From: Planctomycetota bacterium
GTDB taxonomy: Bacteria; Planctomycetota; Phycisphaerae; FEN-1346; JAACEH01
Direction of reading: 5' to 3'
Assembly: GCA_016935955.1 (NCBI GenBank)
Contig: JAFGPY010000324.1
Location: forward strand, 1 to 11,715
Length of the DNA stretch: 11,715 bases
The translations under genes and the position numbers were made by a program. Positions 1,733 to 7,287 of this stretch are shown piece after piece. Under the pieces are notes generated by a model that was not told the DNA's origin, ran no database searches, and saw only the letters and a list, made by a program, of their open reading frames with translations. Positions within the stretch are counted from its first letter, which is position 1, and the number at the start of each line of letters is the position of its first letter.

Positions 1733-1762
1733 TTGTCTTGCGGCGTTCAGACATGGTATAAT
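1733..1762 (+). promoter_or_regulatory. Extended -10 promoter of the first Cys-motif gene
   Basis: TGG TATAAT (1754-1762) is a perfect -10 hexamer with the TGn extension. TTGTCT at 1733-1738, 18 bp upstream, is a 4/6 -35 match. The same TGGTATAATAC block recurs at 2652-2662 before the paralogous gene, which supports it as functional. A start 7 nt after the -10 would fall at about 1769, the base of the hairpin that follows. Confidence 0.7.
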
Positions 1763-1767
1763 ACAGA

Positions 1768-1797
1768 GCCGCTGCACGTTGCAGCGGCTTTTTGTTT
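1768..1797 (+). promoter_or_regulatory. Leader hairpin with T-rich tail, first copy
   Basis: GCCGCTGCA (1768-1776), loop CGT, TGCAGCGGC (1780-1788) form a perfect 9-bp stem. TTTTTGTTT follows (1789-1797). By shape this is an intrinsic terminator, but it begins at the predicted transcription start, which makes ordinary termination unlikely. A 5' mRNA-stabilising hairpin, an attenuator, or a source of very short RNAs are alternatives. It is conserved in sequence and position at 2666-2694. Confidence 0.7.
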
Positions 1798-1813: not shown

Positions 1814-1846
1814 AGAACCGCGAGCATCTGAAAGGAGTAGGAGAGT

Positions 1847-2512
1847 ATGAGGCGCCTGTTGGAGGTTGTGGGACTGGTTGTCGCAGTGGTCGTGCTGTAC
1901 ACGGTACCGGCGTGTGCGGTCGTTGCTGAGGACAACGTTGCGGCCGGTGAGACGGTGGCGGCGGAACAGCCCGCGGCGGACAAGGAGGCTCCCAAGGGCG
2001 GCGACGCTCCCAAGGCCGACGAGGCCCCCAAAGCGCCCAAGCTGAAACCGTGCTGTGAAGCAATCTGCAAGAACTGTGCATCGCAGGCCGACGAGGCCAA
2101 GAAGCTCGTCGACGAGGCCGCGGCCCTTGAGTCCAAGGACGAGGCCAACGACAAGCTCGACGCGGCGGCCAAGATCGTCGGCGCCGTGAAGGCCGACATG
2201 GACGCCAAGATCAAGCCGGCCAAAAAGGAAGCCGAGGGCGAGGCCGCCGACGACGAGGCCAAGGCGCCCCCGACCCCGCCGTGCTGCAAGAGAACGTGCA
2301 GCCGCTGCCTGCCGCAACTCGGCCAGGCCCTGAAGGCCATCGAGGCCGCCAAGGAAGCCGAAACCCTGGACGCCGCCAAGCCGCAGATGCAGAAGGCCTC
2401 CAAGACTCTCGCCGCTCTGAAGGGCAGCATGGACCGCCTGATGAAACCGGCCACGAAGGCCGGCGACGCCGAGAGCGAGAAGAAGACCGACAAAGGCGGG
2501 GCGGAAGAATAG
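1847..2512 (+). CDS. Exported protein with two CCx3Cx2C helical modules (paralog 1)
   Basis: 221 residues; I recognise no named family. A hydrophobic N-terminal segment (about 5-24) ending in PACA-VVAED looks like a signal peptide; VPAC is only a poor lipobox. A low-complexity Ala/Lys/Pro/Asp linker follows. Two homologous modules then start at CCEAICKNC (Cys 69, 70, 74, 77) and CCKRTCSRC (Cys 146, 147, 151, 154), each followed by about 50 residues of Ala/Lys/Leu-rich predicted helical hairpin ending in a DxKIKP or DRLMKP motif. The C-terminus is a charged tail. Four closely spaced cysteines suggest a metal or cluster site, or disulphide pairing outside the cytoplasm; there is no CxxCH haem motif. 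The start is fixed by AAAGGAG nine nt upstream. The gene has its own promoter-hairpin leader and is followed by a paralog on the same strand. Function unknown; that it is a real gene is well supported by the paralog, RBS and codon pattern. Confidence 0.85.
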   Translation: MRRLLEVVGLVVAVVVLYTVPACAVVAEDNVAAGETVAAEQPAADKEAPKGGDAPKADEAPKAPKLKPCCEAICKNCASQADEAKKLVDEAAALESKDEANDKLDAAAKIVGAVKADMDAKIKPAKKEAEGEAADDEAKAPPTPPCCKRTCSRCLPQLGQALKAIEAAKEAETLDAAKPQMQKASKTLAALKGSMDRLMKPATKAGDAESEKKTDKGGAEE

Positions 2513-2561
2513 CCTCGCGATCTGCGGCCCTGCTCGTTAGGACCGTTCCTCAGACCATCAA

Positions 2562-2616
2562 GGCGACCCGGGCGAGCTTTCCGCCGTCCGGGTCGCCGGT
2601 CCATGGGGGACGGCGG
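2562..2616 (+). promoter_or_regulatory. Two overlapping, mutually exclusive hairpins between the paralogs
   Basis: GGCGACCCGG (2562-2571) is perfectly complementary to CCGGGTCGCC (2588-2597), a 10-bp stem. CCGCCGTCC (2581-2589) is perfectly complementary to GGACGGCGG (2608-2616), a 9-bp stem. The second stem's left arm lies in the loop and right arm of the first, so both cannot form at once. No T run follows, so it is not a standard intrinsic terminator. It lies 50 nt after the stop of the first paralog and just before the promoter of the second. Confidence 0.45.
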
Positions 2617-2651
2617 CAAGTCGTGATTTCCATCTTGCAGGCTGTCGGAAT

Positions 2652-2660
2652 TGGTATAAT
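2652..2660 (+). promoter_or_regulatory. Extended -10 promoter of the second Cys-motif gene
   Basis: TGG TATAAT, identical to the element at 1754-1762. There is no good -35 at 17 +/- 1 bp; TTGCAG (2635-2640) is 14 bp away, too close for normal sigma70 spacing. CTTGC occurs at nearly the same distance upstream in both copies (1737 and 2634), so it may be a shared protein site. An extended -10 can work without a -35. Confidence 0.65.
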
Positions 2661-2665
2661 ACGAA

Positions 2666-2694
2666 GCCGCTGCACGTTGCAGCGGTTTCTTTGT
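2666..2694 (+). promoter_or_regulatory. Leader hairpin with T-rich tail, second copy
   Basis: GCCGCTGCA (2666-2674), loop CGT, TGCAGCGGT (2678-2686), then TTCTTTGT. It is the same hairpin as at 1768-1788; the single change at the stem base (C to T) keeps pairing as G-U. The distance from the -10 hexamer is identical in both copies. Confidence 0.7.
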
Positions 2695-2725
2695 TGCCTG
2701 CGCTGGGATGTGGGGGTCCAGGACT

Positions 2726-2732
2726 TAAGGAG
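2726..2732 (+). promoter_or_regulatory. Ribosome binding site that fixes the start at 2742
   Basis: TAAGGAG lies nine nt before the ATG at 2742. The in-frame ATG at 2691 lies inside the T-rich tail of the leader hairpin and has no such site, so the longer reading is rejected. The first paralog has AAAGGAG at the same nine-nt spacing. Confidence 0.8.
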
Positions 2733-2741
2733 TGTCAGAGC

Positions 2742-3299
2742 ATGAACCGTGTACTGAAGGTTACCGTGGTGGTTGCGGGATGGATCGCCCTGTCGGCGAT
2801 GGTCGCTCTTGCGGCCGACAAGGCCGACAAAAAAACCGACGATGCGGCGCCCAAGGCGTGCTGCAAAGCCCTGTCCCGATCGACCCTGGCCAAGCTCAAC
2901 AAGGTGTCCACAAGCATCGAGAAGGCCGCCGGCGACACGGCCAAGAAGACCCTCGATGCCGATCTCGACCGCGCGGCCAAGGCCATTGACGGCATCACGG
3001 CCGAACTGGAGGCCAAGATCAAGTCGCCCAAGAAGTCCAAGAAGGGCGACGACGGCGCCCCTCGCGGACCGCAGACGCCGCCCTGCTGCCAGAAGATCTG
3101 CAAGCGGTGCCTGTCGTCGCTCGGTCAGGTGAGCCGCGCGATCGACGCCGCCAAGAAGGCCGAGACGCTGGACAGTGCCAAGCCGCAGGTCACCAAGGCC
3201 GACGAGGCCCTCAAGGAACTGAAGGCCGAACTCGAAGGTATCGCCAAGTCGGAGACGAAGGCCAAGGGCCGGGACAAGGACAAAGAGGAAGACGACTAG
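2742..3299 (+). CDS. Exported protein with one intact and one degenerate CC-type module (paralog 2)
   Basis: 185 residues, homologous to the gene at 1847; no named family recognised. The N-terminus (about 5-24) is hydrophobic and ends in VALA-AD, a good signal peptidase I site, so the protein is probably exported and soluble. The second module starts CCQKICKRC (Cys 115, 116, 120, 123) and aligns closely with module two of the paralog: TPPCC, then LxxLGQ, AAKxAETLDxAKPQ, and LKxxM/L. The first module keeps the double Cys (40, 41) but reads SRST where the other two cysteines should be, so its four-Cys site has been lost. Length, helical composition and the AKIK module end are kept. The linkers are Lys/Asp rich, and the C-terminal tail is strongly charged. 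It converges on the ATP-grasp gene across a repeat-filled gap. Expression is probably shared with paralog 1 through the conserved promoter-hairpin. Confidence 0.85.
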   Translation: MNRVLKVTVVVAGWIALSAMVALAADKADKKTDDAAPKACCKALSRSTLAKLNKVSTSIEKAAGDTAKKTLDADLDRAAKAIDGITAELEAKIKSPKKSKKGDDGAPRGPQTPPCCQKICKRCLSSLGQVSRAIDAAKKAETLDSAKPQVTKADEALKELKAELEGIAKSETKAKGRDKDKEEDD

Positions 3300-3326: not shown

Positions 3327-3433
3327 GGGTGCCATGGCTGCTCCGTCGTAGATCCCGAGCAGCGTCGAGGGGCAGCCATGCGTTGTGAGATGGGGAGCTA
3401 TTCGGCATGCCTGACGTAGCAGGCATGGCGCCC
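3327..3433. repeat. Cloverleaf-like dispersed repeat, copy A (with loop insertion)
   Basis: The element starts GGGTGCCATGGCTGC (3327-3341) and ends with a 62-bp block (3372-3433) identical to 7226-7287 except one base (G3430 versus A7284). The ends pair: GGGTGCCATG with CATGGCGCCC, the one difference giving a G-U wobble. CATGGCTGC (3333-3341) pairs with GCAGCCATG (3372-3380) around a 30-nt loop; copy B has only CCC there. CATGCCTG and CAGGCATG form another arm. No coding capacity. Confidence 0.85.
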
Positions 3434-3614: not shown

Positions 3615-4640
3615 TTACTCGACGGGCTCGCCGCGGTAGCGCAGGCCGAGGTTCAGGATTCGCTGCAGCAGACGCTGGTAGTTGATGCCGCCCGCTTCGG
3701 CCGATTCGGCGAAATCCTCGCCGTAGGCCAACTGTGGGTTGTGGTTGCATTCCAGCAGGTAGATCTCGCCGTCGGACGATTGGCGAAAATCCATGCGGGC
3801 GTATCCGCTCTGGCCCAGGGCGCGATACGCCCGTCTGCATGTCCGCAGGATGTGCGACCGCAACTGCGGCGGCAGGTCCTTGGCTTCGCGGGTCATCACG
3901 CCCCGGGCCTTCTGGTACTGGAAGTCCCACTTGACCTTGGCCGTGGCGATGTTGGGGGCGTTGTCCGGCAGGTTCTCGAACGTCAGCTCCCAGATCGGAA
4001 ACGTATCGAGCCGGCGGTTGCCGATCACGCCGACGTAGAATTCGCGGCCCTCGATGTACTGCTCGGCCACGGCGTCGGTCCCGAGCTGCGCGTGCACCAA
4101 CTCGACGCGCTCCCGGAGCTGGTCGTCGTCGTGAACGATCGAGGCCTGCGAGATGCCGACCGACCCGTGTTCGGTGGCCGACTTCACGAGCAGCGGAAAG
4201 GCCAATCGCCGCGGGCGGCGGATGCGGCGGTCGCGCTCGAAGAGTCCGAAGTCCGGCACGCGGACGCGGTGCGACCGCAGAATGCGGTTGGCCAGGGCCT
4301 TGCTGTGCGACAGGATCATGCCCCGCGGGTTGCAGCCCGTGTAGGCCTGCCCGATCAGGTCCAGGTACCCCAGCACGTAGGGGGCGTAGACGCGCGACCC
4401 GCGAAACTCCTCCAGCAGGTTGAAGACGATGTGCGGTTTCTGTTCGTCGAGCGTCTTACGGAGCGGGTCCAGGGTGTCGCCGATGCCCACCGGCCAGGCC
4501 TCGTGGGCCATGTTGTGCAGCGTCGCCAGGACGTCATATTCGGTACGCCAGGGGGCGGCGTTCTTGGCGTCCTGGTCGTCCACCTTCTCCGGCGGCACGA
4601 GGTCCTGGTGCATCAGGACCGCCACTCGCAGCTTCTTCAT
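3615..4640 (-). CDS. D-Ala-D-Ala-ligase-like ATP-grasp enzyme
   Basis: 341 residues. ATP-grasp enzymes of this fold activate a carboxylate as an acyl phosphate and join it to an amine; the substrate here is unknown. Visible elements are FNLLEEF (73-79), AYTGCNP (99-105, like the ligase PYTG motif), the ATP-binding segment FPLLVKSATEHGSVGIS (148-164), EQYIEGREFYVGVIG (193-207), and the metal-binding strands YARMDFR (280-286, Asp284) and GEIYLLECNHNPQL (291-304, Glu297 and Asn299). The usual ligase ExNxxPG end is replaced by ECNHNPQL, so it is unlikely to be the housekeeping Ddl, although the length is in the same range. No signal peptide, so cytoplasmic. Its ATG overlaps the TGA of the upstream metallopeptidase gene by 4 bp (ATGA), which implies translational coupling and a joint pathway. 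The stop (TAA) faces the convergent Cys-motif gene. Confidence 0.88.
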   Translation of the reverse strand: MKKLRVAVLMHQDLVPPEKVDDQDAKNAAPWRTEYDVLATLHNMAHEAWPVGIGDTLDPLRKTLDEQKPHIVFNLLEEFRGSRVYAPYVLGYLDLIGQAYTGCNPRGMILSHSKALANRILRSHRVRVPDFGLFERDRRIRRPRRLAFPLLVKSATEHGSVGISQASIVHDDDQLRERVELVHAQLGTDAVAEQYIEGREFYVGVIGNRRLDTFPIWELTFENLPDNAPNIATAKVKWDFQYQKARGVMTREAKDLPPQLRSHILRTCRRAYRALGQSGYARMDFRQSSDGEIYLLECNHNPQLAYGEDFAESAEAGGINYQRLLQRILNLGLRYRGEPVE

Positions 4641-5728
4641 AGCGCCACCCGGTAATTGCCTCGCTGCAGGAAGTTCATCGTCTGAATCGTCAGCAGGATC
4701 GCCACCTCGAGCGTCGTCTGCTGCTTCGGCCGATGGACCCGCAGGCCCATCTCGCGCGACCGCGTGATCATTTCCTTCAGCACCTGGTCGATCGTGTACT
4801 CGTACTGACCGGTCCAGGCGGCCACCAGCGACCGCAACTGCGGCGCGACCCGGCGAAGGAACGTCGCCGCTGTTTCCTTATCGGCGTGTTCGCGCCCCTT
4901 TGTGAACAATCGCCGCAGATCGCGCACGTAAAAATCGGGGAACTCTTTGCCGTAGCGGGCCCGCTTGCGGCGGTAGTGGTCGCGCAGCGTCGTTCGCAGC
5001 ACCTTCAGCGGTTCGACCTGCCGCCGCGAGTAGTTCACCGGCCGCGTGCCCGCGATCTCGCGCATCAGTTCGTCCACGTACTCGAGCTTCTTCAGCGCCG
5101 GCCAGCCCTCGTAGCGCGTTCGCCACTGGGAGCCCGGCGTCAGCCAGACCGCGAACGTCTCGGCGAAGTCCTCGGCCGGATGGCTCTGGGCGTACCAATA
5201 GTCCAGGTGCAGGACGAACTTGCGGCTGCTGGGTTTGGGCAGGTAGATGTCGGGGTAGGGCTTCGACGAGTTGCCGAAGACGCGTTGCCATTTGCGCTTG
5301 CGGTGCAGTCGGAAGGCGTTCGAGATGGCGTGGCCCACCTCGTGCCTGAGCAGTTGCATGCACCAGCGGCGCGTGCCGCCCTCGACTTCGAGCATCTGCT
5401 TCTTCTCGAGGCGCATCAGCCGCGGGTGCGCCAGGTAGAAGGGGATCGCCGCACCGGGCACGCCGTCCGGCGTGAACCATTCGTCCGAGAGCCAGAAGTG
5501 CGGCTTGAAGAGCAGGCCGCGGCGGTCGAGTTCGCGCTGCACCTGGGCGACGCGCTTCTGGAGCACCGTGCCCTCGATCCGCAGGCCGAGCTTCGAGAGC
5601 CGCACGTCCAGCAACTCGTCGTCCGACAGCCGCGCCCACGTCGGAGTCTTCCGCCGCGGACGGGCAACCTTGCGCTGCCGCGCACTGCTCGTCTTTCGTG
5701 TGGTCTTGCGGGCGGTTTTGCGTTTCAT
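4637..5728 (-). CDS. HEVGH zincin-like putative metallopeptidase
   Basis: 363 residues. The N-terminal 30 residues are very basic (MKRKTARKTTRK onward), and no signal peptide or membrane segment is seen, so a cytoplasmic or nucleic-acid-associated location is likely. The zinc motif HEVGH is at 129-133, in RRWCMQLLRHEVGHAISN. HPAEDFAETFAVWL (183-196) supplies the downstream acidic third ligand (Glu186 or Glu190). This layout resembles the putative zinc-binding metallopeptidase family (Peptidase_Mx type), where an HExxH helix is followed by an (A/W)EDxAET segment. The C-terminal half is helical and Arg/Lys-rich with no motif I recognise. The start is ATG 5728: the upstream in-frame ATG at 5776 lies inside the predicted -10 box, and GGGAGG is present 13 nt upstream. 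It is first in a two-gene operon with the ATP-grasp gene (4-bp overlap), suggesting hydrolysis of, or processing for, the ligase's product. Activity is inferred from motifs only. Confidence 0.85.
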   Translation of the reverse strand: MKRKTARKTTRKTSSARQRKVARPRRKTPTWARLSDDELLDVRLSKLGLRIEGTVLQKRVAQVQRELDRRGLLFKPHFWLSDEWFTPDGVPGAAIPFYLAHPRLMRLEKKQMLEVEGGTRRWCMQLLRHEVGHAISNAFRLHRKRKWQRVFGNSSKPYPDIYLPKPSSRKFVLHLDYWYAQSHPAEDFAETFAVWLTPGSQWRTRYEGWPALKKLEYVDELMREIAGTRPVNYSRRQVEPLKVLRTTLRDHYRRKRARYGKEFPDFYVRDLRRLFTKGREHADKETAATFLRRVAPQLRSLVAAWTGQYEYTIDQVLKEMITRSREMGLRVHRPKQQTTLEVAILLTIQTMNFLQRGNYRVAL

Positions 5729-7207: not shown

Positions 7208-7287
7208 GGGTGCCATGGCTGCCCCGCAGCCATGCGTTGTGAGATGGGGAGCTATTCGGCATGCCTGACGTAGCAGGCATGGCACCC
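7208..7287. repeat. Cloverleaf-like dispersed repeat, copy B
   Basis: 80 bp. GGGTGCCATG (7208-7217) pairs perfectly with CATGGCACCC (7278-7287) at the ends. Arm 1: CATGGCTGC-CCC-GCAGCCATG (7214-7234). Arm 2: CATGCCTG-ACGTAG-CAGGCATG (7260-7281). It lies 42 bp upstream of the Tat lipoprotein start. The 62-bp right part is shared with copy A (3372-3433) with one mismatch. Confidence 0.85.

Follow-up and report, generated by a model that had tools for sequence, protein, structure and literature searches.

Two adjacent forward-strand genes, A and B, in the 11,715-nucleotide stretch of planctomycete DNA analyzed here (the window) encode apparently exported paralogous proteins built from helical-hairpin modules that carry clustered cysteines. 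They represent a real orphan family with a consistent cysteine site, apparently restricted to a single lineage. Tentatively, these proteins could serve, beyond the cytoplasm, to soak up or buffer a soft metal through their thiols, a leading reading that draws on analogy with known metal-binding bundles and that is quite possible at this stage.

Cysteine modules and their predicted structure

The two genes and their modules are laid out as follows:

1847..2512, forward strand: gene A, 221 amino acids (aa), two CCx3Cx2C helical-hairpin modules, apparently exported (open reading frame list and AlphaFold2)
1847..1918, forward strand: putative signal peptide of gene A, ∼24 aa, ending in ACA, assigned by eye
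2048..2212, forward strand: predicted hairpin of gene A module 1, helices 68-93 and 97-122, cysteine motif at 2051-2077
2279..2443, forward strand: predicted hairpin of gene A module 2, helices 145-170 and 174-199, cysteine motif at 2282-2308
2742..3299, forward strand: gene B, 185 aa from the ATG at 2742, a paralogue of A with one eroded and one full module, apparently exported
2742..2813, forward strand: putative signal peptide of gene B, ∼24 aa, ending in ALA, assigned by eye
2856..3026, forward strand: gene B module 1, eroded, with CC only at 2859-2864, AlphaFold2 helices 35-63 and 68-93
3081..3257, forward strand: gene B module 2, cysteine motif at 3084-3110, AlphaFold2 helices 114-139 and 143-172

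The program-made list of open reading frames opens the frame of gene B at TTG 2691; the ATG at 2742 is used here. Judging from their signal peptides, both proteins are likely exported by the Sec route. The motif cysteines are residues 69, 70, 74, and 77 (module 1) and 146, 147, 151, and 154 (module 2) in protein A and residues 40 and 41 (module 1) and 115, 116, 120, and 123 (module 2) in protein B. These positions and the reading frames confirm the initial annotation, which described two adjacent genes with four modules in total, three beginning CCx3Cx2C and one keeping only the CC; the full motif is in both modules of A and in module 2 of B, and CC alone is in module 1 of B. Protein A has one extra cysteine, C23, inside the signal peptide, where the sequence VPAC might represent a weak lipobox. 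Histidine is absent from both proteins.

AlphaFold2, supplied with five-row alignments, predicts two helical hairpins in each protein (pTM of 0.54 for A and 0.61 for B), in line with the earlier description of the modules as helical. The block-mean pLDDT values are 90-97 in the middle of the helices, 55-91 in the cysteine-holding blocks, and low elsewhere. In the models, helix 1 starts one residue before the motif in both modules of A and in B module 2 and five residues before it in B module 1. A helical-wheel plot places the second, third, and fourth motif positions on the hydrophobic side in all eight modules and the first 74-109 degrees away from it, with the amphipathicity of single modules being weak. 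The cysteines are neither dispersed in sequence, standing at the start of a predicted helix, nor unconserved: alignment A6 has five proteins, including two that are nearly identical, and each of them retains all four cysteines of module 2.

Neither Pfam nor NCBIfam has a model that scored above its cut-off for A, B, or the relatives scanned, in keeping with the initial annotation, which knew of no family with this exact motif. The best Pfam match below the cut-off, SOAR (E-value of 0.0026; 18.1 bits versus the required 25; protein from genome G043), was taken to reflect helix composition. Four spellings of the CCx3Cx2C motif were not found in the literature searched, and a literature search for exported metal-binding proteins of Phycisphaerae found none. 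Foldseek returned no PDB match at E ≤ 0.001 for the model of A. A further structural comparison matched the models of both A and B to many four-helix bundles.

Module ancestry and genomic distribution

Most of the module pairs are homologous beyond composition. Local alignment scores exceeded those of all 2000 shuffles (p ≤ 0.0005) in five of the six pairs, with p = 0.005 for A2-B1. After removal of the cysteine stretch, four of the six pairs retained p ≤ 0.002 and A1-B2 gave p = 0.02; the A2-B1 pair (p = 0.18) is not homologous beyond composition by this measure once that stretch is removed. In the module tree, a single branch (support of 87/93; 88% of bootstraps) separates the four module-1 rows from the four module-2 rows, and B module 1 forms a long branch. 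This split fits an internal duplication that preceded the gene duplication, an order of events that had been suggested in the initial annotation and that now has moderate support.

The cysteine loss noted earlier in one of the modules is real and graded between relatives. Module 1 of the B orthologue in G043 and of the related protein P0004 reads CCx3C, with the third cysteine retained, and the same module in the window reads CC. The CxxC part is broken in the G043 orthologue and lost in the window, and the vicinal CC is present in all eight modules counted (those of A, P0002, B, and the G043 protein). The substitution pattern of gene B is that of a moderately constrained coding gene: it differs from its G043 relative at 49, 41, and 74 sites in codon positions 1, 2, and 3, respectively (184 codons; dN of 0.30 and dS of 0.71). 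The alignment also reveals charged low-complexity tails of variable length. Those of the G043 orthologue (L089, 6071-6715) and P0004 are rich in Lys and Asp and differ from each other, the remainder of the two proteins being identical, which suggests slippage in the tail repeats.

In a search of ∼5.8 billion proteins, the only relatives found, the window's own proteins aside, were the A-type protein P0002 (212 aa, 74% identity over 96%) and the B-type protein P0004 (214 aa, 65% identity over the part searched); such a search requires shared exact words, so that distant relatives may escape it, and one search scored the 7999 best word-sharing candidates. A clear relative was found in 1 of the 397 genomes drawn from the class and 1 of the 8 genomes of the order, namely, in G043, which encodes an orthologue 60% identical to B. 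This orthologue adjoins the same two genes as B, whose products are ∼80% identical between the two genomes:

3615..5725, reverse strand: gene for a D-Ala-D-Ala-ligase-like ATP-grasp protein overlapping the gene for a putative zinc metallopeptidase (Pfam)

Gene A was not found in G043, the only relative genome among the 397, so conservation of the tandem pair, which the initial annotation had proposed to check, is not borne out; B alone was detected in that genome.

Other searches delimited the family further. A protein-alignment scan of genome contigs, with patterns that derived from low-complexity stretches, detected no relative. Within the 80 class loci reached through homologues of the neighboring oxidoreductase, A, B, and six other window proteins had no tblastn match at E ≤ 1e-3. 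Neither phages nor plasmids gave a match to protein A, and among 88 loci the CCx3Cx2C pattern in a K/A/E-rich frame was seen only in L082. Profile A2 matched 7 of the 397 class genomes at E ≤ 0.01, one of them (G043) real; the weak matches were read as a coiled-coil protein (L083) and an MlaD-like protein (L084), and L085 to L088 were also set aside as not real. Profile A8 matched 10 of the 397 at the same threshold, again with one real match. Those rejected covered chiefly the cysteine stretch (L097, L100, and L101) or the first 28-30 positions (L095) in open frames of 38-68 aa, helices of long frames (L096, L098, L099, and L102), or a Cys-free hairpin (L094). The short frames at L097 (∼1465, reverse strand) and L101 (∼1390, forward strand), from two class genomes, have the sequence LHxCCQRxCxRCxP in common and similar flanks. 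Across the phylum, where 392 genomes were scanned, profile A7 matched two at E ≤ 0.001; one of these, G530, encodes a Cys-free hairpin protein (P0006). The L094 match (1306-1800) lies in an apparently exported protein of G007, a member of the same order, with a single Cys-free hairpin that resembles the module; its relationship to the A/B scaffold is possible.

A candidate metal site and its alternatives

In the proposed mechanism, A and B would leave the cytoplasm by the Sec route and fold as four-helix bundles, with a linker rich in Lys, Ala, Asp, and Pro between the two hairpins of each protein. An up-down-up-down arrangement would bring the N termini of helices 1 and 3 to the same end, so that both cysteine groups could form one thiol-rich mouth facing the core. 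The CxxxC pair of a single helix, together with thiolates of the other hairpin, would hold ions at this open end, Cu(I) being the first candidate and Zn or Cd the next. The mode of binding would be like that of SmbP, Cys taking over from His, or like that of reduced Csp1. The modules would provide up to 8 thiols in A and 6 in B, so that B may be a lower-capacity or more specialized copy. Pfam hits for nine scanned proteins of the window include no metal-handling family, so that the case for a metal role is built on the predicted structure and the conservation of the cysteines.

SmbP, one of the two nearest parallels in architecture, is a small four-helix protein of the periplasm that depends on Sec for its export (PMC7137794, PMC12955753); it binds metal and is said to help remove metal ions (PMC7137794). 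A and B may resemble it, being apparently exported and predicted to form two hairpins each. Superimposed on the model of A, SmbP (PDB entry 3u8v) has 23% identity, the highest among the 50 matches listed, with an rmsd of 1.5 over 77 residues; its Z score of 12.0 does not stand out from those of other bundles. The 50 matches listed for the model of B do not include it. Nor is 3u8v among the PDB sequence hits up to E 10. However, SmbP is a His-rich protein with many histidine ligands that binds divalent metals, whereas A and B contain no His and would use Cys. An SmbP-named family, which Pfam presumably includes, is missing from the Pfam hits up to E 10 for five proteins.

The Csp proteins provide a second parallel. 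Csp3 is a four-helix bundle with eight Cu(I) sites, at which the metal is held by CXXXC pairs that belong to single helices (PMC5171941); the likeness to A and B would lie in the bundle, the core-pointing cysteines, and the use of a single-helix CxxxC as a Cu(I) site (PMC5171941, PMC7558416). In the A/B motif, the second and third cysteines make up a CxxxC that is predicted to be on the hydrophobic face, at helix starts only. The exported Csp1 takes up 13 Cu(I) ions, is Tat exported, and is tetrameric, and Csp3 is cytosolic; in contrast, the signal of A and B looks Sec-type, and their 8 or 6 cysteines would sit at the start of just two helices. Csp entries are not among the 50 matches listed in each of three structural comparisons, which does not count against the parallel. 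DUF326 (PF03860) is absent from the Pfam hits up to E 10 in all five proteins and was found in none of the eight order genomes. A and B may be viewed, by analogy, as combining the export and hairpin plan of SmbP with the ligand spacing of Csp3.

Cytochrome b562 (PF07361), also an exported up-down-up-down four-helix bundle, gave a weak local match to a hairpin (E of 0.83), and entries bearing BRIL are among the structural matches listed. PF07361 is present in 11 of the 150 class genomes searched, G043 not being one of them. However, its His heme ligand is missing from A and B, and the family is not among the Pfam hits up to E 10; on these two grounds, homology to cytochrome b562 was dropped. 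What is new in A and B may be a variant of the exported helical-bundle kind, with a function that we infer.

The best surviving alternative, although rather unlikely, is that A and B are disulfide-pinned structural or cell-envelope proteins, in which the cysteine groups cross-link the hairpins to each other or to other envelope proteins and the Lys/Ala/Pro-rich tails touch the wall. The apparent export, the invariant CC, the variable charged tails, and the expected location of both cysteine groups at the same end of the predicted bundle all agree with such a role. However, a profile search found the DsbA and VKOR families in none of the eight order genomes (whose completeness is not stated) and in 8 and 3, respectively, of 14 well-known control genomes, which favors free or metal-bound thiols over disulfides and weakens this option with respect to these two oxidant families. 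Each cysteine group also lies within a single helix, where cysteines at i and i+4 do not pair well, and a literature search on cysteine-rich walls of planctomycetes, judged by title, gave nothing fitting.

Still less probable is a generic exported helical hairpin of a chaperone-like or space-filling kind, with cysteines that serve for attachment or are incidental. The Cys-free hairpins of similar sequence in the apparently exported proteins of G530 and G007 and the rapid divergence of gene B would fit it, but the cysteine spacing of module 2 has stayed fixed in all five proteins despite divergence elsewhere. Least probable of all is a thiol-based redox or electron-transfer carrier, with CxxC cycling between thiol and disulfide or the cysteines holding a cluster: three of the four window modules contain CxxC and the neighboring divergent gene encodes a pyruvate:ferredoxin oxidoreductase (Pfam), but CxxC is the very part of the motif that is lost in B module 1 and broken in the G043 orthologue, no thioredoxin-like or ferredoxin family in Pfam or NCBIfam matches A or B, and the oxidoreductase belongs to a cytoplasmic family and was not detected by tblastn within the 20 kb of G043 sequence containing the B orthologue.

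Should the metal-sink reading hold, exported helical-bundle metal buffers could be built with a compact mouth of cysteines instead of histidines or a cysteine-lined core, and free thiols might be tolerated outside the cytoplasm of bacteria in which DsbA and VKOR were not found. Proteins A, G043, and B would then offer a natural comparison of 8-, 7-, and 6-thiol forms on one scaffold.

Leader and promoter

Both genes are preceded by similar leaders, read directly from the DNA:

starting at 1733, forward strand: −35-like TTGTCT of gene A, listed by the promoter scan with the promoter of A
1757..1762, forward strand: −10 TATAAT of gene A, a consensus match preceded by TGG (extended −10)
1765..1791, forward strand: 5′ hairpin or inverted repeat of gene A, core CGCTGC-N5-GCAGCG
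1832..1837, forward strand: ribosome-binding site AAGGAG of gene A
2655..2660, forward strand: −10 TATAAT of gene B, a consensus match preceded by TGG
2663..2689, forward strand: 5′ hairpin or inverted repeat of gene B, core CGCTGC-N5-GCAGCG
2727..2732, forward strand: ribosome-binding site AAGGAG of gene B

The promoter scan, for which a −35 element is needed as well, does not include the promoter of gene B. In both leaders, TGGTATAATAC is followed directly by the CGCTGC-N5-GCAGCG repeat, a T-rich run, and AAGGAG. In G043, the leader of the orthologue carries TGGTACAATAC; its repeat core and spacing are those of the A and B leaders, and the T-run is missing. The conservation of the leader, another point raised in the initial annotation, thus extends to the promoter and hairpin, which are common to A, B, and the G043 orthologue. 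An exact pattern written from these three leaders occurs at one place in the 397 class genomes, before the G043 B orthologue, where it matches by construction; no second place was found in G043 nor any in the other class genomes with this pattern, which would miss variants. The 20-base hairpin had no match in viral contigs.

With an inferred start site 6-7 bases past the −10 element, at about 1768 for A and 2666 for B, the transcript would open with the hairpin, and the leader would be a case of a hairpin placed at the very start of a transcript. The pyrophosphohydrolase that initiates transcript decay in other bacteria has a preference for 5′ ends that are unpaired (PMC3997798). The consensus −10, the strong ribosome site, and the transcript-start hairpin could together provide high and stable expression. 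A role of the repeat as a DNA operator is a fair alternative; a terminator was dropped as the general case because the T-run is missing in G043. As for the hairpin itself, its covariation in the three sequences is reached by 108 of 500 shuffles, and in the G043 leader it is present in the 28-nucleotide fold and not in the minimum of the 80-nucleotide fold.

It is possible, though doubtful, that all these features belong together in a lineage-restricted exported metal store that holds metal only at the mouth of two CCx3Cx2C hairpins and has a dedicated promoter and a transcript opening with a protective or regulatory hairpin, with B recording how one half-site lost its ligands step by step, from CCx3C as in G043 to CC as in the window.

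Elsewhere in the window, a 62-base intergenic repeat is found at positions 3372-3433 and 7226-7287 in two copies that are 98% identical, beside a GGGTGCCATGG / GGCATGGCACCC-like palindromic sequence; it looks like a dispersed repeat.
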